The notes under the pieces: model-generated
Databases searched by the model: none
What the model saw: only the letters and a program-made list of their open reading frames with translations
Told to the model about the DNA's origin: nothing
Shown here: positions 5,152 through 49,100 of the stretch, in pieces
Layout: each line of letters begins with the position of its first letter
How positions within the stretch are numbered: position 1 is the first letter of the stretch
Position numbers and translations under genes: made by a program
Assembly: GCA_944368925.1 (NCBI GenBank)
Contig: CALVXG010000036.1
Location: forward strand, 1-60,885
Origin: an uncultured Clostridia bacterium
GTDB lineage: Bacteria; Bacillota; Clostridia; Christensenellales; Borkfalkiaceae
Direction: 5' to 3'
DNA length: 60,885 nucleotides

Positions 5152-7824
5152 ATGAAAACAAAAAGCAAATGGATGATGATGGCGGCTGTGTTGCTCATGT
5201 TTGTTATTGCTGTCGGAGGATTTTGTTTTACGGCAGGAGCGGAAACATCGGGTAATTCTAACGGCTGGGTAACCGAAGCGCCTGCGGGGTCGAGCGTTGA
5301 TTTTGGTTCCAACAAGCAATGGCCGATGGCTCCTGTTGACAGGGGTGAAGGCGTTACGGAATGGTGTTTCAATAACGGGCAAGTTACCGCGAACGAGACG
5401 GCGCTGGACGTTACGAAGCCGATTGTTCTTACTTATAGTACGAAAAGCAATGTGGCGCCGGATGCAGGGAGCTGGGTCATGTTTGCACTGACGACGACGT
5501 TTGAGGGCGCTACCAAATTGACGGCGGGAATACAGGAAGAGGGCAATGCACAATACCGTCCTTTTTTCTACGCGCATCAGATGAAGGATAACCGTGATCA
5601 GGATGCAGGCGGAGCAGGCGCAACGGTTGTGGTCAATTCCGCAAAATACGGAATGCTGAGCAACAGCTGCGGGGCTGCATACGATAACAATGCGATGACT
5701 ACGCTGGAGATTTATTTGGGCGCCGAACAGAATACGGACGGCTATATTCTTGTTGACGGGCTGTATGTAGGGTATCCTTCCGTGACGCAGAGCGCATATG
5801 CAGACGGAAAAGCGTATCTTGCAATTTCTGCGTTTAATTCCGGGTTTTTCCGTATAAAAGTGGGGAACGCGGTGGAGGTGACGGATGTCAAAGATTATGA
5901 TCTTTCGGCTGCGGTGACCAATGCAGCGGTTGTTTTGCAGGACAACGCGCTTTGGCGTGCGGATGCAGGAGAAACCGTTTCGTTCAAAGTGGAAAACATA
6001 ACGGAGGGGTATCTTGTTAAAAGTGTAAAGGCGAACGATGAAACATTGTCGGCGCAGGACGGGACGTATTCCTTTACGATGCCCTCGCAGGATACCGTAA
6101 TTACGGTAGAAACAGAAAAAGCACCGGACACGTATACCGTTCATTATGAAGGTTCTGTAGCAGAGATCGCTTTCCGAGACAATACCGACACATATGTTGC
6201 AGGAGCAACAGTTACGTTTACGGTAGAAGTCAAGGCTGCATATACTTTACAATCCGTAAAAGTAGACGGAGTCGTGCTGGAAGAGAAAAACGGATATTAT
6301 TCGTTCATCATGCCGCAAGCTGATGCCGTGATTACGGTAGATGGAATAAAGAATTACAGTAAACCATCCGAGCAGACAGTTTCCAACGCGGTAAACGGAT
6401 GGAACAACGAACAGAACACGAAAGATCCCAACTATGGAGCCGTGGTTGACGGAAACGGGTCGTCTATGGTGAATGAAGGAAACGGATATTCGAATTTCGT
6501 GCTTAACAATTCGGGTTCGATCAGTTCGGTAGTCGGTTTTGATGTTACCAAACCTATTTATTTGGACATGCTGGTTATGCCGAACGGGGCGATTCCGGGA
6601 GACATAGGCTGGTTCATGGTCGGGTTTTACGATGACTGGAATATTATGCTGGAAGCGGGGGTGAACGGTTATGGATCGTCGGGAACGACCTTGGATCTGA
6701 ATGAAAAGATCAACGAATATTTGAAATTGTGTTTCGGGTTTAATTACAGCGATATAAATAGCAAATCGACGCCGCTTTCATCTTTCAAAAATATTACAAT
6801 CGCAAGCGACTTGTCTTTGACCAATAAATTCGGCGATGCTTGGGGCTGGACGGAAGAAGGACGCGGAACGGATTTTGATTATGCAAAGTTTGAGATCTAT
6901 ATCGGAGCGACGGCGGAAGAAGGTTATGTCAAAATAGACGGGGTAAAGATCGGCACGCTTTCAGTGACGCAATCGGATTTCCATGAGGGGACGGCATATG
7001 TACATCTTATGAGTTTTTATTCTTCGCGGATTCAGGCGAAAATTTATGCCGAAGCGGAGCTGGATGCACAGACGAACGTAGATTCCCGTGCAGAGATCGT
7101 TTTTGCCGAAGGGACTGACTTAAATTCTCTCATGACATATGACGAGGTACGTTTTAAGGTCAATGTGCCCGCACAATACGGTGCGCTTGTCAGTGCAGAC
7201 GGAAAAGAACTTAAACCCGATGCGGACGGCAATTATGTTCTTTCGGTCGGATACGGAAAAAGCATTCTGACGGTAACGGTAGATGAAATGGTAACGGTAA
7301 CCTTTGAAACCAACGGCGGAACAGAGGTTGAACCCGTTTCGGTAACAAAGGGCGGAACCGTTTCTGCCCCTGAAATCATGAGGGAAGGTTATACATTGGA
7401 ATGGTATGCGGACGAGGCTTTTCAAAATGTTTTTGATTTCGGGGCTGGAATCACGGAAAGCTGTACGGTCTATGCAAAATGGACGCCTGTAGAATATTCT
7501 GTTTCCTATTATGACGGGGCAAATAAAATAAGAGATCTTTCTCCTGCAAGTTATACGGTGGAAAGCGGAGAAATTGCGCTTCCAGTGCCTGTAAAAGAGG
7601 GATATACCTTTGACGGATGGTATACGACTGCAAATTTTGCGGGAGATAAAGTGGAGGTTTTGGAAGCCGGAACCACGGGCGACATTACCTTGTATGCGAA
7701 GTGGACGGAAACCACGGAGGGAGGCTGCAGTGCGGGATTGAACTCCGGATTTATTGTCGGCGCAGTTGTCGTCTTTACGGTATCGGCGGTATTGCTGATC
7801 GCGGGAAAGCGAAAAAAAATCTGA
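5152..7824 (+). CDS. Large secreted surface protein with InlB-type repeats and GGCS tail
   Basis: An 890-residue secreted protein with a signal peptide (about 1-30). It has two copies of a lectin-like beta domain (about 30-240 and 412-645), each starting with NGW, containing DVTKPI and ending near EIYxGA...GYxxxDG. Small FTMP/FIMP-type beta repeats lie between them. Two InlB B-repeats (Listeria-Bacteroides type; about 715-850; VTFETNGG, GYTFDGWYT, LYAKW) precede the tail. The tail is GGCS with Cys859, a hydrophobic helix and GKRKKI. It is first in an operon with a nucleoside hydrolase, sugar importer and GH99-like lipoprotein, behind a LacI operator. The likely role is cell-surface glycan binding; no catalytic motif is seen. 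Confidence 0.85.
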   Translation: MKTKSKWMMMAAVLLMFVIAVGGFCFTAGAETSGNSNGWVTEAPAGSSVDFGSNKQWPMAPVDRGEGVTEWCFNNGQVTANETALDVTKPIVLTYSTKSNVAPDAGSWVMFALTTTFEGATKLTAGIQEEGNAQYRPFFYAHQMKDNRDQDAGGAGATVVVNSAKYGMLSNSCGAAYDNNAMTTLEIYLGAEQNTDGYILVDGLYVGYPSVTQSAYADGKAYLAISAFNSGFFRIKVGNAVEVTDVKDYDLSAAVTNAAVVLQDNALWRADAGETVSFKVENITEGYLVKSVKANDETLSAQDGTYSFTMPSQDTVITVETEKAPDTYTVHYEGSVAEIAFRDNTDTYVAGATVTFTVEVKAAYTLQSVKVDGVVLEEKNGYYSFIMPQADAVITVDGIKNYSKPSEQTVSNAVNGWNNEQNTKDPNYGAVVDGNGSSMVNEGNGYSNFVLNNSGSISSVVGFDVTKPIYLDMLVMPNGAIPGDIGWFMVGFYDDWNIMLEAGVNGYGSSGTTLDLNEKINEYLKLCFGFNYSDINSKSTPLSSFKNITIASDLSLTNKFGDAWGWTEEGRGTDFDYAKFEIYIGATAEEGYVKIDGVKIGTLSVTQSDFHEGTAYVHLMSFYSSRIQAKIYAEAELDAQTNVDSRAEIVFAEGTDLNSLMTYDEVRFKVNVPAQYGALVSADGKELKPDADGNYVLSVGYGKSILTVTVDEMVTVTFETNGGTEVEPVSVTKGGTVSAPEIMREGYTLEWYADEAFQNVFDFGAGITESCTVYAKWTPVEYSVSYYDGANKIRDLSPASYTVESGEIALPVPVKEGYTFDGWYTTANFAGDKVEVLEAGTTGDITLYAKWTETTEGGCSAGLNSGFIVGAVVVFTVSAVLLIAGKRKKI

Positions 7825-7837
7825 CGGAATGAGGAAT

Positions 7838-7859
7838 CTGCGCCGCAGCTGCGGCGCAG
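7838..7859. repeat. Perfect 22-bp GC-rich palindrome between two operon genes
   Basis: CTGCGCCGCAG followed directly by its reverse complement gives a near-loopless hairpin just after the surface-protein stop and 9 bases before the ATG at 7869. There is no T tract after it, so it is not a standard terminator. It occupies the place where a ribosome site would be expected. Confidence 0.7.
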
Positions 7860-7868
7860 TACAAAAAA

Positions 7869-8780
7869 ATGAAAATTATATTGGATACGGATATCGGGAC
7901 AGATATCGATGATGCGTTTGCTCTTTTGTATCTTTTGAAGAAGAGGGCAGATCTTGCGGGCGTTACAACTGTTTTCCGCAATGCGAAACGCCGGGCGAAA
8001 TTATGCAAGGCAATCGCGCATTCAATGCAAATTCCCGCATTGCAAGTGTATGCAGGGATAGATAAACCGTTTGTGCAGGAACCGGAAAAAATAGAGCCTC
8101 CTCAATGCAAGCAGGATTATGATGCCGAGGGGAACTATATACCTCCGCAATGTTCGGATAAATTTGAAGTATATGAGATTCCTCAAACCAATGCGACTGA
8201 GTTCATTATAAAAACTTGCCGGAAAGCGGAAAAAACAGAGATTTTGTCCATAGGAGCGCTTACGAATGTTGCGACGGCGATACGCATTGCGCCGGATATT
8301 GTCCCCAAGATCCGATTGACGATGATGGGCGGTTGTTTTAAAAAATTGTCATTAGGCGGAGAGGCGGAGCATGAGGTAGCGGAATGGAATATCTTATGTG
8401 ATCCTGAAGCGGCGCATATTGTGTTTTCTTCCGGCATGGAAATACGCATGGTGGGATTGGACGTTACGCTGGATTGTACGCTTTCAAAGGAAAATTTTGA
8501 AAAAATACGCGAACTGAAGGTTTGTCCGGTTTTGGATGAACTTATGCAAAAATGGGCGGCATATTACCAAAGAGAACTTCCCGTATTGTTTGACCCGGTG
8601 GCGGCGGTATCGATATTTACCGACTGTCTGACGTTTAAAAAGAAAAAGATGCGCATCGGGCTCAGCGGCAAGAGAAGAGGGGTTACCTATGAAACCCGGA
8701 GCGGGTACAATGTGGAAGTTGCCGTGGAAAGAGACGATAAAAAGTTTTGCGAAGAATTTTTTTCGGTTTTGCAAAGATAA
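7869..8780 (+). CDS. Inosine-uridine-type nucleoside hydrolase
   Basis: A 303-residue cytoplasmic enzyme of the IUNH family, which hydrolyses the N-glycosidic bond of ribonucleosides to free base and ribose. The calcium-binding Asp cluster is intact at the N terminus (DTDIGTDIDD, residues 6-15). The conserved MMGG and AEWNILCDPEAA stretches lie in the middle. The start ATG at 7869 has no good Shine-Dalgarno and sits right after a strong hairpin, so it may be poorly or conditionally translated. It lies in a glycan operon, and a ribokinase-type gene lies 5 kb downstream, which would fit ribose salvage. The base specificity cannot be told. Confidence 0.9.
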   Translation: MKIILDTDIGTDIDDAFALLYLLKKRADLAGVTTVFRNAKRRAKLCKAIAHSMQIPALQVYAGIDKPFVQEPEKIEPPQCKQDYDAEGNYIPPQCSDKFEVYEIPQTNATEFIIKTCRKAEKTEILSIGALTNVATAIRIAPDIVPKIRLTMMGGCFKKLSLGGEAEHEVAEWNILCDPEAAHIVFSSGMEIRMVGLDVTLDCTLSKENFEKIRELKVCPVLDELMQKWAAYYQRELPVLFDPVAAVSIFTDCLTFKKKKMRIGLSGKRRGVTYETRSGYNVEVAVERDDKKFCEEFFSVLQR

Positions 8781-8801
8781 ATGAATTGGAAAGGAGCAAT
8801 T

Positions 8802-10265
8802 ATGAAAAAACTTATTTCGATTCTGTTGGCGGTCATGCTGTGTGCGGGAGTATTTGCCGGCTGCAGCGTTGATATCGGCAATGATGGTGAAGGCACGGGC
8901 GATTTTTCCGGAGAAATAGATTTTAATGCAGGGACAGATTACACGGATACGATTAAAGTTTGGGTTACCAACAATGACAGCGAACTGAAACTGATGGAAG
9001 CGTTTGTGAATGCTTTTAATCAGGTGTATCCGAACATTACGGTGGAATACCAAGGCATCGATTCACTGACCGATCAGCTGATATTCAATTCCGGGTTGGA
9101 GAGTATGTGCGATGTGTTCTGGGTGACGCCCGAATACATTTCCCGTTATCAGGAATATGGCTTGATTGCCCCGCTGTCTCCCATTGTGGAGGCAGATCAG
9201 GGATTTGATCTGGAAAATCTGAACGAAGATTGTGTGCGCAGTTGCAGCAGCGACGGGGTATTGTACGTAATGCCGCGCGACTACAATCAGGTTGTAATGT
9301 ATTATAATGTGGATATGTTTGATGCAGCGGGCGTTGCTTATCCTTCTTCGGAGGAGGCAATGACGCAGGATGAATTTGTGGAAATGCTGGCTGCATTGAA
9401 AGAGGGGCTGCTGACTTCGGATGAAACCAACAGCTATGGCGTAAAGTACAGCGAGGGTTTTACAAACTCGATGGATGCCTCGATTTTATGGGATTCTCTT
9501 TCCTGGCCTGTCGTGAAAAGTTTTGGCGGCATGATTTTTGACGATGAAGGCAATTATCTTGATGAAAACGGAAACATGCTTTTTGATTCGGAAGGGACAT
9601 ACGAGGCGATGTTGTTTGCACATGACCTGGTGGCGAATCAATACATGGGGAATCCGGGAACGTGGAGTACCAAAGACGGTGCGCAGTTTCTTTTGGAAAC
9701 AGCGCCTGTATATTTGCATTGCAGGGCGATATTGTCTTCGTTGACCACGGCGACCAGCGCCTATCACGGACTTTCCGATATCGGCGTTGCGCCCTGTCCT
9801 GATTTTGGCGACAGTGATACGTATTATGTCGGATCCGGTGCCACGGGGTATTCCATGTATTCGGAGAGTGAGCATAAAACAGCGGCATGGCTTTTTTTGA
9901 AGTTTATTGTCAGCGAACGTGCACAGGAAGAGGCGTCCAAAACGGGAAATCACGTACCTGTGATCGAAAGTTTGATCACCGATGAGAATGCGGAGTGGAG
10001 AAAATATACGACTTCTGCTTTCGGGGAACAGTATTCCAACGAACCGTTTATTTACAGGAGAGAAGAGTGTTTCACGCACGTGCGCGATTTTATGCAATAC
10101 ATTGATGCGTCATATCAGTCCACCGTTTTCGAGCGTTTGCAGAATTGTTATACGGATTGTATTACAAATGTAAAATCGACGGATGCGGCCGGCATAGAGA
10201 CGGAGATCAAGGCATTCATATCGAAGTATGCAAAAGAAATGAAGAACTATATTGAAGCGGATTAG
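8802..10265 (+). CDS. Sugar ABC transporter substrate-binding lipoprotein (locus 1)
   Basis: A 487-residue lipoprotein of the family 1 extracellular solute-binding proteins. It has a signal peptide with lipobox GVFAGC (Cys near residue 26) and an acidic Gly-rich linker. The binding-protein core follows (KVWVTNNDSELKLMEAFVNAFNQVYPNITVEY, split over two beta/alpha units). The ATG at 8802 is preceded by AAGGAG; the in-frame ATG at 8781 lacks a ribosome site. Two permease genes follow at once. It captures an oligosaccharide for import; the ligand is unknown. Confidence 0.92.
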   Translation: MKKLISILLAVMLCAGVFAGCSVDIGNDGEGTGDFSGEIDFNAGTDYTDTIKVWVTNNDSELKLMEAFVNAFNQVYPNITVEYQGIDSLTDQLIFNSGLESMCDVFWVTPEYISRYQEYGLIAPLSPIVEADQGFDLENLNEDCVRSCSSDGVLYVMPRDYNQVVMYYNVDMFDAAGVAYPSSEEAMTQDEFVEMLAALKEGLLTSDETNSYGVKYSEGFTNSMDASILWDSLSWPVVKSFGGMIFDDEGNYLDENGNMLFDSEGTYEAMLFAHDLVANQYMGNPGTWSTKDGAQFLLETAPVYLHCRAILSSLTTATSAYHGLSDIGVAPCPDFGDSDTYYVGSGATGYSMYSESEHKTAAWLFLKFIVSERAQEEASKTGNHVPVIESLITDENAEWRKYTTSAFGEQYSNEPFIYRREECFTHVRDFMQYIDASYQSTVFERLQNCYTDCITNVKSTDAAGIETEIKAFISKYAKEMKNYIEAD

Positions 10266-10276
10266 GAGGAATACAG

Positions 10277-11227
10277 GTGCTGAGTGCAAACGGAGATTTG
10301 AAATCCGAAAAGGCGAGAGTTTCGGTGTCGCTCAAAAAATGGATAAAAAAAGATTATGCTTGTTACCTGTTTCTTTTGCCGGCGTTTATAGGTTTTTTTG
10401 TCTTTTCCGTGTATCCGATGGTGGCGTCGCTGTTGTACGCTTTTACAAATTTCAACGGGACAAAAATCACACAGATCGGCACAATGAATTTTGAAAAAAT
10501 ATTCAGTTCGGATATTATAGACGGTTGGTCTGAAGTGGGGAAATCTTTCGGGCTCAGTATTCTGTATTCAGTCATATCCATTCCGATGAATCTTGTCCTT
10601 TCATATATTTTAGCCTTGTTTTTATACAAGGAGATAAAAGGCATACGTTTTTTCCGTTTGCTGTATTATCTGCCCGTAGTTATTCCCGGAATTGCAATGG
10701 GCTTGCTTTGGATGGACGTATTCAGTTCGGAATCTACGGGAATAATGAATCAGATTTTTGCTTTTTTGGGCATACCGAAAAGTAACTTTTTTCAAAGTGC
10801 GGATACATCTTTGGCGACCTATATTTCAACAGGTTTGTGGGTGATCGGCGGAAATATGATCATGTGGCTTGCCGCATTGAACAATATTCCGCCTTCGGTG
10901 ACCGAGGCGGCTAAAATCGATGGCGCGGGATATTTTCATCGTTTGTTTGTAATTGTGATCCCGCTTTGTACTCCCATATTGTTTTATAATCTGATAAACG
11001 GAATTATTGCTACGCTGCAGACATTTGATTCGTATGCAATGGTAGGAGCCGGCGTAGACAACAGTTTGTATTTTATAGCTGTCCGGATTTATGTAACGGG
11101 ATTCAAGCATATGAAGATGGGCCTTGCTTGTGCGGAGGCATGGCTGCTCTTTTTGATGGTCGCGGCGTGTACGTTGATCATGTTTCGGTTTTCGAAATGG
11201 GTATTTTACAGCGATGATGAAAACTAA
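10277..11227 (+). CDS. Sugar ABC transporter permease, MalF-like (locus 1)
   Basis: A 316-residue membrane protein with about six transmembrane helices. It carries the inner-membrane permease EAA loop, EAAKIDGAGYFHRLFVIVIP (about residues 211-230), that contacts the ATPase. It starts with GTG at 10277 after AGGAGG, 11 bases past the binding-protein stop. It overlaps the next permease gene by 14 bases, which suggests translational coupling. No ATPase gene follows. Confidence 0.92.
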   Translation: MLSANGDLKSEKARVSVSLKKWIKKDYACYLFLLPAFIGFFVFSVYPMVASLLYAFTNFNGTKITQIGTMNFEKIFSSDIIDGWSEVGKSFGLSILYSVISIPMNLVLSYILALFLYKEIKGIRFFRLLYYLPVVIPGIAMGLLWMDVFSSESTGIMNQIFAFLGIPKSNFFQSADTSLATYISTGLWVIGGNMIMWLAALNNIPPSVTEAAKIDGAGYFHRLFVIVIPLCTPILFYNLINGIIATLQTFDSYAMVGAGVDNSLYFIAVRIYVTGFKHMKMGLACAEAWLLFLMVAACTLIMFRFSKWVFYSDDEN

Positions 11228-12065: not shown

Positions 12066-12085
12066 CATAGAATGAGGAAACAGCT

Positions 12086-13945: not shown

Positions 13946-13961
13946 TGTAAAAAGGATCAAA

Positions 13962-13998
13962 ACATATGCCGCCGCAAAAAAAATACGGCGGCATATGT
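13962..13998 (+). terminator. Hairpin ending the locus 1 operon
   Basis: A 13-bp perfect inverted repeat, ACATATGCCGCCG (13962-13974) with CGGCGGCATATGT (13986-13998), and an A-rich 11-base loop. It lies 17 bases after the GH99-like stop. The T tract is short, so termination may be partial. Confidence 0.65.
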
Positions 13999-14039
13999 TT
14001 CTGAAAATAAATAAAAAGGAACAAGGGAAAATAATCTGT

Positions 14040-26676: not shown

Positions 26677-29163
26677 ATGGCTCTTAAAAAAGTAAAAAAA
26701 TGGCTGACGTTGTTTTTTTCAGCAGTATTTGTTTGTTCGATGTGTGCGGCCGGAGCGGCGGCTGTATTCGGGCAAACGTCGGAAGTTGAACAGGTTACCG
26801 TCAGCGGCGGTTGGGAAAGCACCGCTGAGGTTCAGGAAAAGGAGGACGGGGAGATTGTTTATTCCTTTGACTCTTCTTCTGTCAATGAAGAACCGGATAA
26901 AATGTGGTCGGCAGAAACTATTGTGACGGAACAAGCGTTCCGTGTAGGGAGACCTTTCACCTTTTATTCTAAAATGTATTGGGAGTATATGGCAAGCGGA
27001 TATCCGATGCCGTCCTGTTATACTTTTACGTTTGCGCCTGAAAAAGAAAAGGCTGTCACATCGCAGCGTCAGATTCAGATTTTCGGCAGTACGTTCGGAA
27101 TGCTGGAAATTGTCGGAAATTCAGCGAATCTTTTTGAAGACAAAAATCACTACGACGTGCCGCAATTTAATAAATTTGAAGTGACGGTCGGGGAGGATTA
27201 TACGCAGATCGTTATAAACGATCGAGAAGTAAAAACATTTCGTTCCATTTGTGCTGAAGATTTTCCGGAAGGAGATGTATATCTGGGTATCGGTATGCGT
27301 TTTGACGGTGCGAACATGAATGAATATCGGTTCGGAGTTTTGCCGGTGGACGGAGTTATGGTACAAGGCGCGAGCGAAGCGATCATTATACGCGGTGATG
27401 AGTCAGACGTAAATTTTGCGATTGATCTGCGCTGTCCGAAATCTGGCATGACGGTGAAAAACGAGCAGGGAGAAACGCTGACGGAAGGAAACGACTACCG
27501 TTATGATCCGTCTGCAGGAGTATTTACTTTTCTCGGCGGATATTGTCGCACGCTGAACATTGGTACGCACATTTATACATTGCAGGGGGAAAGCGGGGCT
27601 TCCGCGCAGGTAAAAATCATTGTCATGACGGATACTCTTTCCCTGCGCGAATGGAGCGCAAATATTACGGCGGGGAGCACTGTTGATGAAACAAACGGAT
27701 TGAGCGTCCGCGATGCGAGCGGGTTTGTTTTGCACAGGAATGCTCCGCTGAACGATCTTCTGAAGGAAATTCAAGTGGAATTTTCCTTTTCGGACAAAGA
27801 GTATGACAGTGCGGACGTCATGACGTTTGTATTTGCCGGCGAAGAAGGACAATTGCGTATACAGCTGTATTTATCTTCGGGTAGAGTGAGTGTTTACTAT
27901 GAGAACGGCTCTATAGCACGGGAGGATACCCAAAACTACATTTATATCCGGAAACAAGAAAAACATATCCTTCGCTTGTATTACAGCAATTATGGTTGGA
28001 GTATAGGCTGCGATGAATTTGACGGAGTGCCTGTTTTCCCTGAATTTTCGGTAGAGAATTTGCAACTTACGATTAGCGGACGGTTTGTAAATGAGACAGA
28101 CGTGCATCTATATTCTGTTACATCTGAGCAGCCGCAAGAAACGGAAAATTTGAACGGGTGGTCTTGCATACAACACTCGCAGGGCAAACTTATGCCGGAC
28201 GGTACCGCTGTTTTTTCCATGAACGACAGCCGCTTTGATTCTATCCATGTGGGAGAAAACGCTTTTTCGCGTGAGAGGTTATATACGACAGAAGGTTTTG
28301 ATGTAAACAAGCCGATCGTCCTTTATACGCATATGGACTGGCAGTCTTGCGGATCCGGTTGGTGGGGGCTGAATCTTTCTGCGGAGCCTTATGATTTTCG
28401 TATATCAGATAAGACTGTGATGCCTGTGTACGATCTTCTCATACAGGGCCCGTATTTGGGCAGCAGTATTGTAAATAGGGCGAATCCTGCCGAATCGTTG
28501 CCATTCTGGGATCTGAACAATCCGATGGTAGCTTATTCTGACCGTACGCAGCTGAATAAATTTGTCATTGAAATCGGAGAAGAAAACACGGTGATTACGG
28601 TCAATGACAAGGAGCAAGGCGTCTTTTCCATCGCCAAGAGTCGTTTTCCGTCGGGGAAAGTATGGCTTAGCCTCGGAGCATATCTGACGCAGTCGGACAA
28701 GAAAGTAAATTTTGCCGTGGCGGCGGTGAATGCACCAGATACAGGAACCGGAATATATCAGACGGTTACCCCGGAATCCGAGCAGGAACTTTGTTATTTT
28801 GTCGATCTGCACGGTTATGACCTGGAAGTACTGTGGGGAGAAACTCGATTGGAAGCGGGGGCGGATTATAATTACGACGCGGAGACCGGGAGGCTTACAT
28901 TCGAAGCAGCCGTAATGCGTGGGCTTTTGGAAGGAAAATCTTCCGGGACTTATCCTATCCTCTTGCGGACGGCGGGAACACAAGCTGTTTCTCCGGTGTT
29001 TGTGAATTATAATGCGGCAGCGGCGGACAACGATAATGCCTTTGAAGAGCATGATCGGAAAGAGCCGGCAAAAAGCGGATGTTCTTCTGCGGTCATTGCG
29101 ACCCATTCGTTGTCCTTTCTTTTGCTTCCCGCTGTGCTTTTTGTTCTGAAAAAGCGCCGTTAA
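26677..29163 (+). CDS. Large secreted surface protein with X2-like domains and GCSS tail
   Basis: An 828-residue protein with a signal peptide (about 1-32). It contains two lectin-like beta domains (about 45-225 and 490-680; motifs GGW/NGW, FDVNKPI, FxxxIGExxTxIxxNDxE) of the kind seen in the 5152 protein. Each is followed by a CBM_X2-like module (about 245-325, FAIDLRC...LTEGNDYRYD; about 695-775, YFVDLHGYDLEV...LEAGADYNYD). Another beta domain lies between them. The C terminus is SGCSS with Cys802, a hydrophobic segment and KKRR. It has a strong AAAAAGGAG site. It is probably an anchored glycan-binding protein; no catalytic motif was found. Confidence 0.8.
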   Translation: MALKKVKKWLTLFFSAVFVCSMCAAGAAAVFGQTSEVEQVTVSGGWESTAEVQEKEDGEIVYSFDSSSVNEEPDKMWSAETIVTEQAFRVGRPFTFYSKMYWEYMASGYPMPSCYTFTFAPEKEKAVTSQRQIQIFGSTFGMLEIVGNSANLFEDKNHYDVPQFNKFEVTVGEDYTQIVINDREVKTFRSICAEDFPEGDVYLGIGMRFDGANMNEYRFGVLPVDGVMVQGASEAIIIRGDESDVNFAIDLRCPKSGMTVKNEQGETLTEGNDYRYDPSAGVFTFLGGYCRTLNIGTHIYTLQGESGASAQVKIIVMTDTLSLREWSANITAGSTVDETNGLSVRDASGFVLHRNAPLNDLLKEIQVEFSFSDKEYDSADVMTFVFAGEEGQLRIQLYLSSGRVSVYYENGSIAREDTQNYIYIRKQEKHILRLYYSNYGWSIGCDEFDGVPVFPEFSVENLQLTISGRFVNETDVHLYSVTSEQPQETENLNGWSCIQHSQGKLMPDGTAVFSMNDSRFDSIHVGENAFSRERLYTTEGFDVNKPIVLYTHMDWQSCGSGWWGLNLSAEPYDFRISDKTVMPVYDLLIQGPYLGSSIVNRANPAESLPFWDLNNPMVAYSDRTQLNKFVIEIGEENTVITVNDKEQGVFSIAKSRFPSGKVWLSLGAYLTQSDKKVNFAVAAVNAPDTGTGIYQTVTPESEQELCYFVDLHGYDLEVLWGETRLEAGADYNYDAETGRLTFEAAVMRGLLEGKSSGTYPILLRTAGTQAVSPVFVNYNAAAADNDNAFEEHDRKEPAKSGCSSAVIATHSLSFLLLPAVLFVLKKRR

Positions 29164-34000: not shown

Positions 34001-34498
34001 TTAAATGTTACGTGGGTGGAAATTCCAAAGACAGATAATATCGGAACGGCAACGGCAAAAGGAATTGTGAAAGAAAAAGACGGAAGCGATGCCGAGATTG
34101 CATTTACGGTTACAGTTCTTAATTATGTGACGGAAATCAAAAATATACCTGCGGATAAAACAGTGGAATTCGGTTCGGAACACGGTTTGCCGCAGCAGGT
34201 AACGCTTGTATTGGCAGACGGAAGTGAGATGCCGGCAGATGTAACGTACAGCGGGGACTACCAAAAAATGACGGCTGGTGATTACACACTTACCGGAACG
34301 ATCGGCACGAATCTGGAGTTTGCGGAATATTTATCCGATAGTTTCTCGGTTAATGTGACTGTACAGGGGCAGAAAATAGCAGCACCTGAAGACGGCGGAT
34401 GCAGTGGCGGATTTACGGGCAGTGCATTTTCGATTGCCATTGGAATTGTTTTGTCGGTCGCTCTGCTGATCATAAAAAAACGGTCAGAAATACATTGA
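31046..34498 (+). CDS. Giant secreted protein with three tandem modules, Ig-like domains and GGCSGG tail
   Basis: A 1150-residue protein with a signal peptide (about 1-32). Three tandem copies of an unrecognised module of about 135 residues follow (about 35-165, 180-315, 325-460). Each contains NxxVRIxxYxT, YLWVARxExGVYxYIxLNGE and EGTTxTFxKGMxLVxxNGxG...LSGDKLGY. A fourth beta region (about 470-715) ends before a Big_2-type Ig domain (about 720-795), a Big_4-like domain, a FIVAR-like helical segment (about 870-945) and two more Big_4-like repeats. The tail is GGCSGG with Cys1119, a hydrophobic helix and KKRSEIH. It is probably an anchored glycan-binding or adhesive protein. Confidence 0.82.
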   Translation: MKNLTVKRIFTPLLLLLCVFCLIFGVQGIVSADETPNENVRIDAYTTQFGTGNVPLLEVRFNVDPLSAPYNGNYLWVARGEEGVYGYIQVNGETLSADAAGAVYDAHQYRNTLLIQVSYPEGTTITYQKGMGLVKGNGLGVEDILTGDKLGYTYTFTLRNGLWELTFTDDPATQALRDDVHIEGYTTRKNDPRGPLLQMQFDIGNVPPYNTQYTWVARKEPGVYQYIKLNGEVLTLDEAGSKFDMFQNQNTLYIYTAYGEGTTLTFEKGMGLVNANGLGAAYSDVSGGILSGDKLGYSYTFMLTDGEWTLVSTDDNDALANEENVRINSYINIDNGAGQAYLQAQFDMDDTAYPYNGDYLWVARNEPGVYEYILLNGERLGEDLAAAHFDMHQMGNEFVTQKAYPEGTTITFCKGMNLVKANGAGTGSILSGDKLGYNYTFTLTGGVWVLTETDDVFFEKKGNHEKTDSSFMLTLHYQGALADGVVSADQLSSITLNDVAAQTATVSQGSVVMTFPTEAYKGGKDLLKLSSGLVLGGRTLDKEYSAYYLDYAHEFSISFTEDITKKEEVEFVGVREGTSITPSGTTHQQIILDFDMNDNTYRDFYNWGYKAGCFYNDIATQSYLSFATSIEIDGKPLKDCTNIIEGDGVYVHYRANSVELYLKNDWFGTNMQGHTIVLKEGYLFPNGKYLGSDVTVRYDPSGSNVNEQISYEIGLSSIRLEDINVYVGKQAAISAVIKPSNATAEVTYSVENSSVAEVLENATIQGKAVGTTKLIAVSGNVRAECTVTVENAIAGIEKPADMVVGLNETPQLPQQVTAVMSDGTKIAGSATYDMSTFVNTRPGTYTIKGTFVPAGGQPFESGVSAEFEVRVSILDLSNLESAIQAGKEFVSSHNEDDYTTASWTVICGKLEEAESLFEKGQNEFVDMAEAERVGEELRAAIEGAVFTKVVTKEPIGNVNVLFGQNVEQILPEKVSVTYDNGTKAELNVTWVEIPKTDNIGTATAKGIVKEKDGSDAEIAFTVTVLNYVTEIKNIPADKTVEFGSEHGLPQQVTLVLADGSEMPADVTYSGDYQKMTAGDYTLTGTIGTNLEFAEYLSDSFSVNVTVQGQKIAAPEDGGCSGGFTGSAFSIAIGIVLSVALLIIKKRSEIH

Positions 34499-38564: not shown

Positions 38565-38570
38565 AAGATA

Positions 38571-39728: not shown

Positions 39729-39852
39729 CAAAATTTTTTTGAAAGTGGCTGAGCGTTAAAAACTTAAAGAAAGCTTTGGCTGTCCATGTATACGTTTCAG
39801 TTATAGTTCTTGAAATGGATCCAAAGATTAGGTTAAAACTAAAAAAATTGGG

Positions 39853-39884: not shown

Positions 39885-40054
39885 GATTAAAACTTTTTGG
39901 ACTTTTATAATCATCAAAATATCTACAAGGTTTTTAGGGATCTTTAGGAGGATTTTAATTTAGTTGTATTTTACTATTTTTTTATATGCTTTCCGTAATA
40001 GAAACACATTGATATAAATATACCAAGATAATGAAAAAAATTAAAAAAGCGATA

Positions 40055-40083
40055 TTGACAGGTATAAAAAGGGGTGATAAAAT
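40055..40083 (+). promoter_or_regulatory. Sigma-A promoter of the locus 3 operon
   Basis: TTGACA (40055-40060), a 17-base spacer and TAAAAT (40078-40083). It lies 29 bases before the GTG start and shows that the ATG at 40074 cannot be the start codon. No local regulator gene or palindromic operator was noticed at this promoter. Confidence 0.85.
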
Positions 40084-40112
40084 TTTTATATAAATTAGAA
40101 GGAGGGAAAATC

Positions 40113-41567: not shown

Positions 41568-41577
41568 GGGGAAAAAA

Positions 41578-42531: not shown

Positions 42532-42532
42532 T

Positions 42533-43387: not shown

Positions 43388-43402
43388 ACAGGGGAGGAAG
43401 GA

Positions 43403-44368
43403 ATGAGAAAACTCAATAGGATTTTGCAAATATTGTTGGTATTTGTTTTGCTCTTTACCATGGTTGGTTGCGGAGAAGACACTGCATCAACCGGGATACA
43501 GATGCTGAACGATTACGGGTATGGTAACGGATTCAATTTGAAGGGTCTCAGTTCTATGAGTTCGGCAAACACGATTAAGGTTTTGCAGTATGGAGAGGAG
43601 ATGGACGTTGAGCCCTCTTGGGAAATCGCGCAGTGGGGAAGCAAATATAATCTTGCGGACGGAACAGAAAAGAGCGAGGGGGATTGGTATACTTATGCCT
43701 GTACCGGAAAAGCACTCAGCGTGAACCGCAAAACATCCGCTGTAAAGTTAACGTTACACGCGCAGGAGGATTATGGCGATACGCCTCGACAACAAGGGCA
43801 GCCATGGCCGCATCTGTTGCTGTCACAAGGTTTTGGTTCTATTACGCGGTTGGATGAGTATGAGTATATCAACGTGGAGATCGATTATACGATCGATTAT
43901 ATGCAGAACATGATGTCGGAGCAGCAATATATCGAGTCGATCCATACCGCACAAATTTTATTCTATATGACCGTCAAAAACGTAGATGCGTATTCCGCCG
44001 ATAAGGGTAATTACTATTGGTTCGGGCTTCCTCTCTACGATTACAGGTATGAATACCCAATAGGCCATACGCAAATTGACGGAGGAAAGGAGGAGGCTAC
44101 GGGAAAGGTCATTTACACGGTTGACGGGAAAGAGTATTACGATGCGCCCCCGACCGTCGGTGTCAAACAAAGCATCAAAATCGATATTTTGCCGTATGTG
44201 CTCGACTCGTTCAGCGCCCTGCAGGAGGCGGGACATTTTGAAAATTCATTCTTGCAGCACATGGTATTCGGCGCGATGAATATCGGTTATGAGATGCCCG
44301 GAACCTTCAACAGCAGCTTCACGTTGGAAAAGTGCAGCATTCAATATGAACTAAAGGAAATGTACTGA
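43403..44368 (+). CDS. WPHLLL-family lipoprotein (paralogue A)
   Basis: A 321-residue lipoprotein (signal peptide, lipobox TMVGC, Cys near residue 24) of a family I do not recognise. Four members occur in this window. Shared landmarks are NGFNLKGL near the start, IAQWGSKYNL, WPHLLLSQ (from residue 135), IHTAQILFYMTVKN, YYWFGLPLYDYRY, TGKVIYTVDG, KIDILPYV and EMPGTFN. The pattern of conserved Trp, Tyr and Asp with many beta-strand stretches suggests a carbohydrate-binding or hydrolytic beta-sandwich. The gene follows the permease by 15 bases and is coupled (stop/start overlap) to paralogue B. Its place in the operon suggests a surface role in glycan handling. Confidence 0.7.
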   Translation: MRKLNRILQILLVFVLLFTMVGCGEDTASTGIQMLNDYGYGNGFNLKGLSSMSSANTIKVLQYGEEMDVEPSWEIAQWGSKYNLADGTEKSEGDWYTYACTGKALSVNRKTSAVKLTLHAQEDYGDTPRQQGQPWPHLLLSQGFGSITRLDEYEYINVEIDYTIDYMQNMMSEQQYIESIHTAQILFYMTVKNVDAYSADKGNYYWFGLPLYDYRYEYPIGHTQIDGGKEEATGKVIYTVDGKEYYDAPPTVGVKQSIKIDILPYVLDSFSALQEAGHFENSFLQHMVFGAMNIGYEMPGTFNSSFTLEKCSIQYELKEMY

Positions 44369-45222
44369 TGCAAATCATACGCGATAATACATTTCAAAGC
44401 GGTTTTCGCTTGATGGGAACAGACATCCTTAAAACGGGAAAAAATGCCGTCGATATTCTTAATAACTGTGGTACGGCAACGGGCTCTCCGGTCTGGCGTC
44501 TTGCGCAATGGGGAAGTCGGTTCTCCTTAAAAAACGAGACCTGTCGTCGCACGGACCGTGGCTTTCTGTATTCAGATCCAGCAAAAACGTTTTGTGCGGA
44601 TCCGTCAGAGGGAAAGGTTTATCTTGAGATCCTTGCGGAAAAAGAATACGATAAGCCGCGCGTTCGCGGAGAAGCATGGCCACACCTTTTGTTGGCGCAG
44701 GAATTTGAACAAAGGTATTTTTTGTGTGATCTGAAAAGCGTGATCTTTGACATGAGTTTTTACGTAAAGGTCAAAGAAAACAGGATGACGGCCGAGGATT
44801 TCGACTCGCAACTCCACACAGGGCAATTCGTCTGGTTCGTCACCGTTCAGAACCATAACCCGCAGTCACCGGAATATCTCGACTATTTCTGGTTCGGCTT
44901 ACCGCAATGCGATCTACGGTACGGGACTCCTCGCTTTTTTGCAAAAAAGGACGACGGGAAGAGAGACTCTACAAATAAGTTCATAAACAGCATTGATGCC
45001 CGGAAATATCTTCCGCACGATCCTACAAAAGGGGCCGTGCATTACCGATATGACGCTTACGAGGACATTGCAGAAGGTTTTCGTCGCGCAAAAGCTCAAG
45101 GTTTTTTGGAAAAAACGGAGTGGGAAGATTTATCTTTCGGGAGTATGAATACCGGCTTGGAAATGCCAGGTACGTTTAATCTCGGGATAGAGATCTCCAA
45201 AATAGGAATTGAAGTCGGATAA
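44368..45222 (+). CDS. WPHLLL-family protein without signal peptide (paralogue B)
   Basis: A 284-residue member of the same unrecognised family but without a signal peptide, so predicted cytoplasmic. It has FQSGFRLMGTDIL, NNCGTATGSPVWRLAQWGSR, WPHLLLAQ (from residue 104), LHTGQFVWFVTVQNHN, DYFWFGLPQCDLRY, TNKFINSID and LEMPGTFN. The start codon overlaps the stop of paralogue A by one base. Having one exported and one internal version in tandem suggests two steps on related ligands outside and inside the cell, or duplication with change of location. No catalytic residue can be assigned from sequence alone. Confidence 0.7.
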   Translation: MQIIRDNTFQSGFRLMGTDILKTGKNAVDILNNCGTATGSPVWRLAQWGSRFSLKNETCRRTDRGFLYSDPAKTFCADPSEGKVYLEILAEKEYDKPRVRGEAWPHLLLAQEFEQRYFLCDLKSVIFDMSFYVKVKENRMTAEDFDSQLHTGQFVWFVTVQNHNPQSPEYLDYFWFGLPQCDLRYGTPRFFAKKDDGKRDSTNKFINSIDARKYLPHDPTKGAVHYRYDAYEDIAEGFRRAKAQGFLEKTEWEDLSFGSMNTGLEMPGTFNLGIEISKIGIEVG

Positions 45223-45234
45223 GGAGGAATGCAG

Positions 45235-46254
45235 ATGAAATTGTTTCGATTGGTGGTTTTTTCACTGATAGGAGCTTGTCTGTTGAGCGGCTGTTCTTAT
45301 GGACAGGAACAAGAAAATAAGGAGGAAGAACTCGTGTTGCCGAATATCGAAGGGGTGGAGATGCTTGAGGATAATTTCTTTTTACAGGGATTAAACTTGC
45401 GCAGATTGCACTCGCAGGATAAGCAAACGCCTATGATTATCAGAAGACTTGACCTTATGGGGACTGCGCAAAAGGAAGATTCGGTTTGGACCATAGCGCA
45501 GTGGGATTGTAGGAATAATTTTGTTGAAGCGACTGAACGGCAAGAAGGAGATAATTATATTTATGAAGATGAGAGCAAAAAGGTTATCGTAAACAATAAG
45601 GAGCCTTCGGTTTATCTCGAGTGCAATGCAAGCCTTGAATACGATGCGCCGCGGCAACAAGGACAAACGTGGCCCCATCTCCTTTTGTCACAGGATTTTC
45701 AGAAGAGATATTGGATTAAAGATTACTCCAATATTTATGTCCAGATGATTATCGAGTTTGAAAAATTCGAAGACAAGATGCTCCCAGAGGATTTTAATCC
45801 GTCTTTACATGCGGCGCAACTGCAGTGGTTCTTTACGGTGCAAAACCATAACAGAGAGAACGATCAATACGGCGATTATTTGTGGTTGGGCGTGCCGATT
45901 TTTGATAATCGCAAGGAATTTCCGGGGAATACGCAGTCGCAGGACAAGGGGCAAGGGGATAAAGTAGGTACAAATAAATTTATCTACAGCATTGATTCGA
46001 GAGCTTATTTACAGGAAACAATGACGCCGGGAAAGAAGGTGGCGATTACGTACGATATCCTTCCTTCTATTAAAAATGCATTCGAAGCGGCACAAGGAAA
46101 AAACTTCTTAACGGCTACAAGTTTTGAAGAGCTCTCTTTCGGTTCGACAAATTTCGGCTGGGAATTGCCCGGAATTTACGATGTAGGTGTGAAGCTTAAA
46201 GATCTCCGTTTAACGGGAGTCTTAAAAAACAATTCGGAAGGGGGAAATTTATGA
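45235..46254 (+). CDS. WPHLLL-family lipoprotein (paralogue C)
   Basis: A 339-residue lipoprotein (lipobox LLSGC, Cys near residue 20; acidic linker after it). Family landmarks are FFLQGLNLRRL, WTIAQWDCRN, PRQQGQTWPHLLLSQ (Trp from residue 146), LHAAQLQWFFTVQNHN, GDYLWLGVPIFDNR, TNKFIYSIDSRAY, YDILPSIKNAF and WELPGIYD. The ATG at 45235 is placed 7 bases from AAGGAGG; the in-frame ATG at 45229 is too close to it. Its end overlaps the next gene (ATGA), so it is translated together with the surface protein downstream. Confidence 0.7.
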   Translation: MKLFRLVVFSLIGACLLSGCSYGQEQENKEEELVLPNIEGVEMLEDNFFLQGLNLRRLHSQDKQTPMIIRRLDLMGTAQKEDSVWTIAQWDCRNNFVEATERQEGDNYIYEDESKKVIVNNKEPSVYLECNASLEYDAPRQQGQTWPHLLLSQDFQKRYWIKDYSNIYVQMIIEFEKFEDKMLPEDFNPSLHAAQLQWFFTVQNHNRENDQYGDYLWLGVPIFDNRKEFPGNTQSQDKGQGDKVGTNKFIYSIDSRAYLQETMTPGKKVAITYDILPSIKNAFEAAQGKNFLTATSFEELSFGSTNFGWELPGIYDVGVKLKDLRLTGVLKNNSEGGNL

Positions 46255-49100
46255 AAAGCAGGATTTTAAAGGTGTGGATGATGGTGTTTTGTTGCGTTTT
46301 GCTTGTCGTCGGTGCGATCGGGGCAATTTTTGTGCAGGCAGAGGAAGACTATTTTTCCGCTGCCAATTTGACGGAAGTAAAAAACCGCACGGAATTTACT
46401 AACCATTTCGGTGCTTCGCCGATGGAGATATTTGCGGAAAGGGACAGCGAAGATCTCTCTACAACAGTGATGTTCAGTAAAATCGGGATGGGATCGCGTA
46501 TCGCGAAAAAAACGAAGGTTCAGTTGGACGGCTTTATGTTTGAAATGAATTATACCAATATAAGGCCGCAACACAACGTATATCTGATCTTTACCGATAA
46601 GACAAACGGGTTCCCTCAGCCGGTAAACACTTTTAAAGGGTTTACAATCCGTCTTATGCGCGGCAATACAGGCGTGCCAGGCATGAATGATTCTGCCAAG
46701 ATCTATCTTACGATTGGAAAATCTCACGATCAGTCCGCGGCAAATGCAATCTACGGGGTAGGAGGGAGCATTTCTTTCGATTATCGGGAGGATGGCGAAA
46801 ATTCTTTGAGTTTCTCTATTGCGTTAGCGGAAGATAACAGCAAATATGTTTTTTCGGTTAGTGACGGTGTAAGCGAGCAAAATCTCGATATTTCGGAGTC
46901 ATATATCAGAGAATGGTTTGCAAGCGGTTCCGATGCCATTTCACAGGCATTCTTTGTTCTCGGTTATTCGGATTTGCCTACCAAACCGAATACGCTTTTG
47001 ACTTCCGATTATCCTACCTATCATATCACGACTCTTTCGGACGCCTTGAAGACACAGTACCTGACGGCGACATTTGCTCCGGAAAAGGCGAAGGTGGATG
47101 CTTATACAAGTGCGGCAAATAAAAATACAATGACGGCGGCGGAGATCTTAGCTGCAGAAGAGGAGATCGAAACGTTGGACGTAAGCAAGCTGTATGTCGA
47201 AGATCAGTATCTTGTGTCGCAAATCAGAAAGGTTGCGGATGACAATATTGCGGCCTCGATTGCAGGCCTTAATGCAGAACAAGTTAACATTCTTCTTGAT
47301 GAGCAGGTAAGTGCATTTGAAGCGATTGCAGAAGCGGAAAAAACTACGGCACAGGCGATTATTGATGCGCGCGCAGCCAAGGAAGAAATCGATTTGCGAG
47401 GTATTACAGACGAGAATCAGTTGGAAACGGTCAACTTAAGAATTTCCGCAGCGATGGCAGTGATCGACGGGCAGGCAAAAGACTTCGTCGAAGGACAGAT
47501 CGAAAAGCTCGAAGCGGTCGTCGCACAGATCGATTCGCTCGCAAAATACACCGAGGCGTATGAGAGCAGAGAGACACTGGATCTGGATCTGCTTGCTGAT
47601 GCAAATGCACATGATTTCGACACGCGTTTGGCGGCGATCGACGCGGCGTTAGAGACGGCGGAACAGACTTACGGGACGGAGTTCGTCCTCGCGAGAGCGG
47701 AGGCGGCGACGGCTGCGTACGAAGCGGCGTATGAGGAAGCGAAGACGGAAGAAAAGCTGAACGACCTTGCCGTTATCGAGGCGGTCGAGGCGTTGCGGGA
47801 TGCGATCCAGTTCACGGGCATCGACGCTGCGGATGAAACGAGGGTTGCGCTTGAAGCGCGCATTCTCGTCATCGATCAGGGTTTGGCGACAGCGAGAAAA
47901 GATATCGTGGTCGCGCAGATCACAGCGTATGAACAGGCGATTGCCTTGATTACGGACGAAGACACGCTCGCGGACGCGAAGGCGTGCAGAGAAGCGGTGG
48001 ATCTTACGATCTTGCCGGACGATGCATTGTTGCCGGAAGGTAGCCAGGCGGCGGATCTGCAGGCGCGCTTTGATGCAGCGGAAGCGGATTACGCGCAGAA
48101 ATATACGGAATTGAGTGAAGGCATTATCGCGGGCATCGAAGCGGCTTTCAATGCGGAAGTCAAGGATCTGAAACTGTACGAAGAATACGTAAAGACGGTG
48201 GAAGATTTCGAAATCGAACTGTTGCCGGAAGCGGATCGCGCGGCGTTTGAAGACAGACTGGAAGCATTGCAGGCAAAAATAGACGAGCACGTTTATGCCG
48301 ATTTTAAGCAGACGAACCTTGTCGGTGCCGTGATGACGGACGGCGGTTTGCAGATGACGAGTATGCTCGATTACGGAGCGCGCGTCAATTACAACGTACC
48401 GGTTAACGTGGACGGGTTTGAAGTGATTTATACTATGGACGAGTTTGCATACCTTGCACCGGCAGCCGGCGACGGCGCCCGTTCCAATGCGGTGATCATC
48501 AATCTTTTGAATAAACCCAACGCGTTTAAAGCGTATGAAGTTGACGGCGAAATGGTGGAAGGTATTTCCGTTTACGTCTGGTATTACAGCGGCACGACGG
48601 GGATCAAAGTGTACTCCGGTGGTGATAATTCGGCAGTTATCGCACAGAGTTCGCTCGCGCCTAGCACGGCTCCCGCATTGATGAAGATTTCCATCACGGC
48701 GGGTGAACACGGCTGGGTGATCAAGGCGAACAGCGCAGAATGCACGGTTCTCTATCCGCAGATCTCTAAAGACGTATTCACGGACGGGCAGGCTTATTTC
48801 TCGATGGGCGTCAACGGCACAACGAAGGCGGAAGATGTACTCGACAAGGCGACCATTCATAAAATTGGCAATCTGGTTCTTGGCGAATATGAAGAGCCGC
48901 AGCAACCCGGAAACAACGACGGCGACGACAACGATAATCAGCAAAACCCCGGGATTATTCCTGACGGCAACAACGGTACGGACAGCGAGCCAAAGGGCGG
49001 TTGCTCTGGTGCGCTGGGCGTTGCGAGCTTCGCCTTGGCAATTTCAACCGTTTTACCGGCTGTGTACATTCTTGGTAAGCGGAGCAAGAGCAGAAAATGA
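46251..49100 (+). CDS. Large secreted surface protein with helical stalk and GGCSG tail
   Basis: A 949-residue protein with a signal peptide (about 1-27). A beta domain (about 30-260; KVQLDGFMFEMNYTN, FTIRLMRG) comes first. An Ala/Glu/Asp-rich helical stalk follows (about 265-685), built of repeats such as AAEEEIETLDV, LEAVVAQIDSLAKYTEAYESR and YEAAYEEAKTEEKLNDLAVIE. A second beta domain resembling the first (about 685-890; VNVDGFEVIYTMDEF, GISVYVWYYSGTTGIKV) and an Asn/Asp-rich linker precede GGCSG with Cys918, a hydrophobic helix and GKRSKSRK. Base composition rises in GC from about 47480 onward. It probably displays two glycan-binding heads on a rigid spacer. It overlaps the neighbours at both ends. 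Confidence 0.8.
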   Translation: MKSRILKVWMMVFCCVLLVVGAIGAIFVQAEEDYFSAANLTEVKNRTEFTNHFGASPMEIFAERDSEDLSTTVMFSKIGMGSRIAKKTKVQLDGFMFEMNYTNIRPQHNVYLIFTDKTNGFPQPVNTFKGFTIRLMRGNTGVPGMNDSAKIYLTIGKSHDQSAANAIYGVGGSISFDYREDGENSLSFSIALAEDNSKYVFSVSDGVSEQNLDISESYIREWFASGSDAISQAFFVLGYSDLPTKPNTLLTSDYPTYHITTLSDALKTQYLTATFAPEKAKVDAYTSAANKNTMTAAEILAAEEEIETLDVSKLYVEDQYLVSQIRKVADDNIAASIAGLNAEQVNILLDEQVSAFEAIAEAEKTTAQAIIDARAAKEEIDLRGITDENQLETVNLRISAAMAVIDGQAKDFVEGQIEKLEAVVAQIDSLAKYTEAYESRETLDLDLLADANAHDFDTRLAAIDAALETAEQTYGTEFVLARAEAATAAYEAAYEEAKTEEKLNDLAVIEAVEALRDAIQFTGIDAADETRVALEARILVIDQGLATARKDIVVAQITAYEQAIALITDEDTLADAKACREAVDLTILPDDALLPEGSQAADLQARFDAAEADYAQKYTELSEGIIAGIEAAFNAEVKDLKLYEEYVKTVEDFEIELLPEADRAAFEDRLEALQAKIDEHVYADFKQTNLVGAVMTDGGLQMTSMLDYGARVNYNVPVNVDGFEVIYTMDEFAYLAPAAGDGARSNAVIINLLNKPNAFKAYEVDGEMVEGISVYVWYYSGTTGIKVYSGGDNSAVIAQSSLAPSTAPALMKISITAGEHGWVIKANSAECTVLYPQISKDVFTDGQAYFSMGVNGTTKAEDVLDKATIHKIGNLVLGEYEEPQQPGNNDGDDNDNQQNPGIIPDGNNGTDSEPKGGCSGALGVASFALAISTVLPAVYILGKRSKSRK

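Follow-up and report, generated by a model that had tools for sequence, protein, structure and literature searches.

A candidate cysteine-dependent C-terminal sorting signal and its putative CPBP-family protease in Christensenellales (Bacillota)

The DNA described here is a stretch of 60,885 nucleotides (referred to as the window) from contig CALVXG010000036.1 of the assembly GCA_944368925.1, which belongs to an uncultured Clostridia bacterium of the family Borkfalkiaceae. Four secreted proteins encoded in the window share a C-terminal tail with a Gly-Cys motif, a hydrophobic helix and a basic end. Across the genome, such tails mark the C-termini of secreted proteins, and their presence co-occurs strongly and repeatedly with one protease clade, here named M, which keeps the catalytic residues of the CPBP family. 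It is likely that tail and protease belong to a Cys-dependent C-terminal sorting system in Christensenellales (Bacillota), which, by analogy, would act like MYXO-CTERM and its myxosortase. A tripartite Cys sorting signal had been proposed in an earlier note made from the window alone, and the C-terminal, genome-wide occurrence of the tails and the co-occurrence with a protease support this proposal.

Each of the four window proteins (Table 1) starts with a hydrophobic signal sequence and closes with [GS]-G-C-S, a hydrophobic helix and a stretch rich in Lys and Arg. The tails of proteins 1 to 4 start with GGCSAGLN.., SGCSSAVI.., GGCSGGFT.. and GGCSGALG.., and 31, 26, 31 and 31 residues, respectively, lie beyond the Cys. 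The last 80 residues of the four proteins contain no LPXTG motif. Thus, the four open reading frames with their signal sequences and ends, the residue counts after the Cys and the lack of LPXTG are all as the earlier note had given them. Protein 3 contains the Ig-like domains Big_4 (E = 1.9e-19) and Big_2 (E = 1.1e-6), the CBM_X2 match of protein 2 (PF03442, 21.9 bits) is under the cut-off of 28.9, and no Pfam match was found in protein 4.

Table 1. Secreted proteins of the window and their C-terminal tails (positions in the window)
Feature	Position	Strand	Description
Secreted protein 1, 890 aa	5152..7824	+	Signal sequence, Listeria-Bacteroides repeats (PF09479, E = 5.6e-23), C-terminal Cys tail
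Candidate sorting tail of protein 1	7702..7821	+	Cys859 codon 7726-7728, then helix and KRKKI
Secreted protein 2, 828 aa	26677..29163	+	Signal sequence, weak CBM_X2, C-terminal Cys tail
Candidate sorting tail of protein 2	29041..29160	+	Cys802 codon 29080-29082; 26 residues beyond Cys
Secreted protein 3, 1150 aa	31046..34498	+	Signal sequence, bacterial Ig-like domains, C-terminal Cys tail
Candidate sorting tail of protein 3	34376..34495	+	Cys1119 codon 34400-34402
Secreted protein 4, 949 aa	46251..49100	+	Signal sequence, C-terminal Cys tail
Candidate sorting tail of protein 4	48978..49097	+	Cys918 codon 49002-49004

The source genome (2.70 Mb, 93.7% complete) was searched with a profile built from the four window tails (A1). 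This search yielded 22 matches at E ≤ 10, and reading identified 16 of them as clean C-terminal Gly-Cys tails, namely the window four and 12 more. With a 16-row tail profile, 31 matches were obtained at E ≤ 0.1. The best 29 of these were read; all are C-terminal and contain the Cys, and the 25 that lie outside the window all end in Cys, helix and Lys/Arg. A complete N-terminus is available for 27 of the 29 proteins (23 of the 25 outside the window), all of which begin with a signal-peptide-like hydrophobic segment, while the other two run off contigs. For the 25 non-window proteins, the script preferred start codons giving a hydrophobic N-terminus. A 32-row profile (A3), comprising five source-genome tails and 27 from other genomes, gave 29 matches at E ≤ 0.01 in the source genome, a set that may differ from the 29 proteins read. 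The prediction of many C-terminal matches per genome is thus borne out in the source genome.

After removal of the last 55 residues, the 29 tail proteins fall into eight BLAST components, with 18 members, five members and six singletons; many links inside the large components are short or of low identity. A tail confined to the window proteins and their paralogues, named in the earlier note as grounds for refutation, is therefore excluded by the eight body components. In a Pfam scan of 20 of the 25 non-window tail proteins, Ig-like, InlB/Flg_new and some carbohydrate-binding domains were found, with matches above the cut-off in 11 of the 20. The suggestion that the displayed proteins bind glycans is less well supported: carbohydrate-binding domains above the Pfam cut-off are present in three of these 20 proteins (L284, L287, L291), and the window contributes a single sub-threshold match. 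A DNA pattern for Gly-Cys-Ser was uninformative, with 483 matches vs 428 for the reversed pattern.

The consensus was drawn from 96 distinct C-terminal tails of the window, the source genome and other genomes. Gly precedes the Cys in 92 of the 96. The residue after the Cys is Gly (49), Ser (26) or Asn (14), and the next position is occupied by Ser (55) or Gly (37). Between 23 and 40 residues lie beyond the Cys, with 27 to 33 being commonest, a range that rules out a fixed spacing of 31 residues as a defining trait. Judged from these sequences, a tripartite C-terminal sorting signal is the best explanation for the resulting consensus of G-C-[GSN]-[SG], a membrane helix and a Lys/Arg end. The residues after the tail Cys (Gly, Ser, Asn) resemble those that follow the lipobox Cys of ordinary lipoproteins; this likeness is in line with an Lgt-like step and proves nothing.

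The partner candidate M is encoded outside the window. The copy of the source genome comprises 326 aa (contig C3, L024:1180-2157, minus strand) and matches PF02517 (CPBP, Rce1-like) with 51.9 bits, above the Pfam cut-off of 22.4. It is one of three CPBP proteins found in this genome, along with one class B sortase. All CPBP matches in 61 genomes of the family, 120 sequences, were collected, and a tree of 118 rows was built after two fragments of G021 had been left out. M forms one clade of 34 rows in this tree, with a Shimodaira-Hasegawa-like approximate likelihood ratio test (SH-aLRT) support of 90 (98 for the inner 29 rows) and one member per genome in 34 genomes. The EExxxR and FxxxH motifs and the second His are kept in all 34 M proteins (E133, E134, R138, F167, H171, H214). 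Residues typical of M are P101 (32/34), N174 (34/34) and G221 (34/34), which occur in 0/58 and 0/15 members of two other CPBP clades. Relatives of M come, among others, from Candidatus Borkfalkia faecipullorum and faecigallinarum, Candidatus Gallimonas merdae, a Christensenellaceae metagenome-assembled genome (MAG) and Mageeibacillus sp. UBA1257; the NCBI taxonomy places Borkfalkia in Christensenellales, Clostridia, Bacillota. The source-genome M shares 55-65% identity with two Borkfalkia copies, and same-genus copies elsewhere share 53-71%; the genus of the window is accordingly most likely Borkfalkia. The AlphaFold2 model of the Candidatus Borkfalkia faecipullorum M has a mean predicted local distance difference test (pLDDT) score of 91.9. 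In a Foldseek search with this model, two chains of 4cad (Rce1, a CAAX protease) were the sole matches of probability 1.00 among the best 50 PDB matches. As a separate observation, a CPBP clade of four members (L059, L060, L068, L084) adjoins M in the tree, and the respective genomes contain 0, 0, 1 and 6 tails.

In the 61-genome sample, with tails counted at E ≤ 0.01, 31 genomes have both M and tails, 3 have M only, 5 have tails only and 22 have neither (p = 6e-9). Other CPBP clades were rejected as partners: the housekeeping clade is present in 58 of the 61 genomes, tails or not, and clade C shows a weaker association (13 both, 2 clade C only, 23 tail only, 23 neither; p = 0.016). The comparison was extended to 398 genomes of the family with the M profile A4 (E ≤ 1e-39) and the tail profile A3 (E ≤ 1e-3). 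The best 6 or best 19 candidates per genome were used, so high tail counts are lower bounds and weak M may have been missed. The M threshold was chosen after the score spread had been seen; G021 (1.2e-40) was counted as M, and ten genomes with M at E between 1e-39 and 1e-15 were counted as M-less. Both were found in 134 genomes, M only in 29, the tail only in 36 and neither in 199 (p = 1.2e-42). The association persists in the 337 genomes from which neither the profiles nor the tree had taken a row (103 both, 25 M only, 33 tail only, 176 neither; p = 3.7e-33). The earlier note had predicted that the tails would be accompanied by a single protease gene of the rhombosortase or CPBP type; exceptions aside, this came true for the CPBP clade M.

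Stratification by genus, with the labels of 26 genomes assigned from handle order, gives an odds ratio of 20.5 (p = 8e-31), and the genera g10, g8, g7, g1 and g2 are each significant. Shared descent was addressed with a pairs test on a tree of the housekeeping CPBP protein, a stand-in for the species tree available for 58 of the 61 genomes and built with a quick method. On this tree, a minimum of 15 changes is required for M and of 12 for the tails. Among 12 independent pairs that contrast in M, the tails agree with M in a mean of 7.1 and run counter to it in 0.0 (sign test, median p 0.016); among 8 pairs that contrast in tails, M agrees in 6.6 and runs counter in 0.1 (means). Clade C offers 5 pairs (median p 0.5) and, because there are only five, was unable to reach significance. 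A larger genome size as the cause was rejected: tail genomes are slightly larger (median 1.7 vs 1.5 Mb, p = 0.016), and the effect of M persists in a joint model. The small genomes G014 and G031 (1.1-1.2 Mb) carry 18 and 15 tails. Within the tail genomes, M was detected in 5/13 at below 70% completeness (mean 63%), 28/38 at 70-80% (mean 75%), 36/49 at 80-90% (mean 84%), 36/41 at 90-95% (mean 92%) and 29/29 at 95% or more (mean 96%). These fractions roughly fit incomplete assemblies, if most tail genomes truly carry M, with a shortfall in two bins.

The association extends beyond the family. From the order, 297 genomes were sampled and divided by listing order into 23 within and 274 outside the family, with thresholds of E ≤ 1e-39 for M and E ≤ 1e-4 for the tail. 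Outside the family, 11 genomes have both, 3 have M only (G448, G518, G632), 2 have the tail only and 258 have neither (p = 2e-15). The M scores of the order sample show a gap from 2.9e-57 to 3.3e-28. The two tail-only genomes are G406 and G512 (62% complete), and their tails look real (L362, L360). The 14 M holders outside the family fall in three further families.

Several observations weigh against the proposed sorting system. At the threshold of E ≤ 1e-39, 36 of the 170 tail genomes of the family have no M, including 17 in genus g3 and five genomes of 90-95% completeness (G056, G088 with 8 tails, G130, G235, G269). Detection lags behind mean completeness in the bins below 70% (5/13 vs 63%) and at 80-90% (36/49 vs 84%), and genus g3 taken alone is not significant (23 both, 5 M only, 17 tail only, 12 neither; p = 0.08). 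Of the 29 M-only genomes of the family, 17 still lack a Cys-covering tail at E ≤ 0.3. M and its supposed substrates are also rarely linked: a tail protein (E ≤ 0.01) was found near M in 1 of 78 loci (L235), and after clustering of the gene neighbours at 49 M loci, none is common to more than 11. The structural match to 4cad is supportive but modest (E 0.014 and 0.023, TM-score 0.41-0.49, best chain 0.44/0.49), and from the PDB sequences the M profile retrieved only three chains at E 0.14-0.2 and no Rce1. The conservation of the Cys among matches is partly built in, because the tail profile itself favours Cys. Finally, the cross-genome profiling of partner families covered CPBP alone.

The exceptions were inspected from both sides. 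With G292 set aside, the 29 M-only genomes were searched again at E ≤ 0.3 along with 29 M-less, tail-less controls, and matches were required to cover the Cys (query from ≤ 7 to ≥ 29), a rule set after the listing had been seen. Weak Cys-covering matches were found in 12 of the 29 M-only genomes and in none of the controls; 11 of the 12 were read, and all are C-terminal Gly-Cys tails. The 17 of 57 g3 genomes with tails and no detected M (e.g., G324, G329, G335, G292) are all less than 90% complete. A divergent protease in g3 tail genomes is possible.

Independently of Cys, the window and the surroundings of M genes (65 loci) were screened for secreted proteins with one C-terminal helix. This approach gave 12 candidate anchored proteins, six with a Cys (four in the window, two in L235) and six without. 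Three of the latter, all from L250, appear to carry TGDAG tails of the sortase type; two more (L229, L231) are not convincing as tails, and the last (L240) ends in a plain helix and RRRRKK. The locus L250 is an M-gene locus from a rabbit gut MAG (Lapin-033 bin3), at which the three secreted proteins end in TGDAG, a helix and KKRH; this genome possibly holds two anchoring systems. At L235 (2673-4840, Mageeibacillus sp. UBA1257), two paralogous secreted proteins (336 and 340 aa), both ending in GCKS tails, are encoded at distances of about 1 and 2 kb from M.

In the proposed mechanism, the precursor, judging by its signal peptide, would be exported by Sec, and the C-terminal helix would stop transfer, leaving the Cys on the outer side of the membrane. 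M, as a CPBP-family intramembrane glutamic protease, would then recognise the Gly-Cys site, cut beside it and remove the helix, as suggested by the co-occurrence and the chemistry of the family. The Cys would probably be lipidated beforehand, possibly by Lgt; this is the least certain step and is modelled on MYXO-CTERM/MrtX. By the same analogy, the mature protein would be held on the outer side of the membrane by a C-terminal lipid. Cleavage of the tail by M is proposed along the line of argument once applied to MYXO-CTERM and MrtX, for which a co-occurrence was followed by proof from experiments (PMC11980579). The chances appear about even for the more far-reaching version, according to which Christensenellales have their own C-terminal lipoprotein pathway. 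Each genome would then encode as many as dozens of surface proteins that are lipidated at a Gly-Cys near the C-terminus and freed from their helix by a dedicated CPBP protease; the lipid anchors would be reversed in orientation relative to ordinary lipoproteins, and the pathway would stand in for a housekeeping sortase.

Other readings of the tail have to be weighed against this mechanism. M might cut the tail without any lipidation, releasing or shedding the proteins instead of anchoring them. The co-occurrence is compatible with any M-dependent cleavage, and no lipid-attaching partner was recognised beside M in the 49 loci, where neighbours were clustered and not assigned to families. The invariant Cys at the cut region is, however, shared with MYXO-CTERM, whose cleavage by a CPBP protease needs the Cys according to PMC11980579, and large, repeat-rich, Ig-like proteins suit retention at the surface. 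We consider release a doubtful reading, with a modest chance of being correct. The assignment of M as the processing enzyme could also be wrong, if the tail is processed by a different enzyme and M is merely a companion of the system, or if M is one of several redundant CPBP proteases. This would explain why M is missing at threshold in 36 of 170 tail genomes, and it draws on the two further CPBP proteins of the source genome and on a cross-genome comparison within CPBP. The other CPBP clades, however, track the tail less (clade C) or not at all (housekeeping), and M is present in all 29 tail genomes of at least 95% completeness, making this explanation unlikely.

A plain membrane anchor has even less in its favour. 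In that case the tail would stay unprocessed, the Cys would be there by chance or for structural reasons, and M would have an unrelated job. A stop-transfer helix with a Lys/Arg tail does suffice for anchoring, such ends without Cys occur in two M-less genomes (L340 of G062, L332 of G349) and one M genome (L341 of G306), and half of the 12 candidates from the Cys-independent collection have no Cys near the helix. Nevertheless, Gly precedes Cys in nearly all distinct tails of many proteins and genera, as far as a profile favouring Cys tails can tell; whether a genome has tails depends strongly on M, both in several genera and beyond the family; and a plain anchor requires no dedicated protease. 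This reading is therefore regarded as quite improbable. Sortase-type cell-wall anchoring through a degenerate motif is the remotest of the readings and is given hardly any credence. The build of the tail does resemble LPXTG signals, and 15 of 32 tails weakly match the LPXTG model (best E 0.0018). In the source genome, sortase anchoring was ruled out by the lack of LPXTG in the window tails and by the only sortase found, sortases having been profiled in this genome alone. This enzyme is of class B (TIGR03064, 199 bits) and is encoded beside a primase-like gene on a small contig of 13 kb (L026, contig C39:855-4346), which is perhaps a mobile element.

Among known systems, the preferred reading of a Cys-dependent signal processed by M is closest to MYXO-CTERM and MrtX of Myxococcota. 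According to PMC11980579, MYXO-CTERM consists of a short motif with an invariant Cys, a helix and a basic end, and occurs on dozens of signal-peptide proteins per genome. The same source describes MrtX as a CPBP glutamic protease that tracks the signal, a co-occurrence that opened the way to an experimental demonstration, and it treats lipidation of the Cys as proposed and not proven. The present system resembles this pair in its invariant-Cys motif with helix and basic end, the many secreted proteins and the single CPBP protease. It differs in its occurrence in Bacillota, the motif G-C-[GSN]-[SG] and the presence of Lys besides Arg at the end. A type II secretion step is not expected in a cell with one membrane, unlike in the hosts of MYXO-CTERM. 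M shares with myxosortases the one-to-many co-occurrence with a C-terminal signal of invariant Cys, exceptions aside.

At the level of sequence models, no M protein read scores above any NCBIfam myxosortase cut-off (Mrt_core, MrtC/P/S/J/A/Z). The best of 32 scanned M proteins reaches at most 35.4 bits of the cut-off of 100 for Mrt_core (NF040914), 37.7 of 75 for MrtJ and 29.5 of 130 for MrtS; the source-genome M scores 20.3 of 75 for MrtJ. Weak matches at E ≤ 0.01 were obtained for MrtJ in 30/32, MrtS in 17/32 and MrtA in 1/32, and further NCBIfam matches, likewise far under the cut-off, concern other CPBP models. The system is thus regarded as acting like a myxosortase and yet set apart, because M fails the cut-offs of the named myxosortase families. 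The pairs Synerg-CTERM/MrtS and JDVT-CTERM/MrtJ and the archaeal MrtA share the general build and the enzyme superfamily, while M scores far under their cut-offs. In addition, JDVT-CTERM is described as a two-gene unit in PMC11980579, whereas M is mostly unlinked to its supposed substrates. The MYXO-CTERM model TIGR03901 matches 5/32 tails (best E 2.1e-5). This is weak evidence, because an unrelated LAVTG sortase-signal model scores alike (2.6e-5, on 2/32 tails). The 32 tails of the wider set match many helix-type signals weakly, most frequently LPXTG (15), with MYXO-CTERM at 5. For the four window tails, TIGR03901 gave no match at E ≤ 10, and the NCBIfam sorting models gave one weak LPXTG match only (E 0.1).

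GlyGly-CTERM and rhombosortase are comparable in that one intramembrane protease serves many C-terminal signals. That system involves a rhomboid serine protease and a Gly site (PMC3237569), unlike the CPBP protease and Cys found here. LPXTG/sortase systems share the order of motif, helix and basic end in Gram-positive bacteria; LPXTG is absent from the window tails, however, and the enzyme belongs to another superfamily. No CPBP/Cys C-terminal sorting system in Bacillota was found in the open-access literature searched or in NCBIfam scans of the window proteins and tails; an earlier mention in print is possible. If correct, the proposal would show how gut Clostridia of a large and mostly uncultured group display proteins on their surface, and it would give a function to one CPBP subfamily. 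It would also provide an annotation signature (G-C-[GSN]-[SG], helix and Lys/Arg) for surface proteins and their protease, and C-terminal Cys lipidation would become directly testable in a laboratory host.

The remaining genes of the window and the surroundings of M offer some further observations. A scan of 20 further proteins of the window gave matches that include three solute-binding proteins, five permeases, a nucleoside hydrolase, a GH116 enzyme, a GDSL lipase, a sulfatase, a rhamnosidase and a ROK protein. The earlier note had placed the four tail proteins beside sugar importers; three sets of solute-binding protein and permeases do lie among the four genes, and sugar is a presumed substrate. 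In 8 of the 49 M loci, which are related to one another (L225, L227-L231, L233, L236), a pair of genes with products of about 260 and 175 aa is found immediately upstream of M, in the same orientation.

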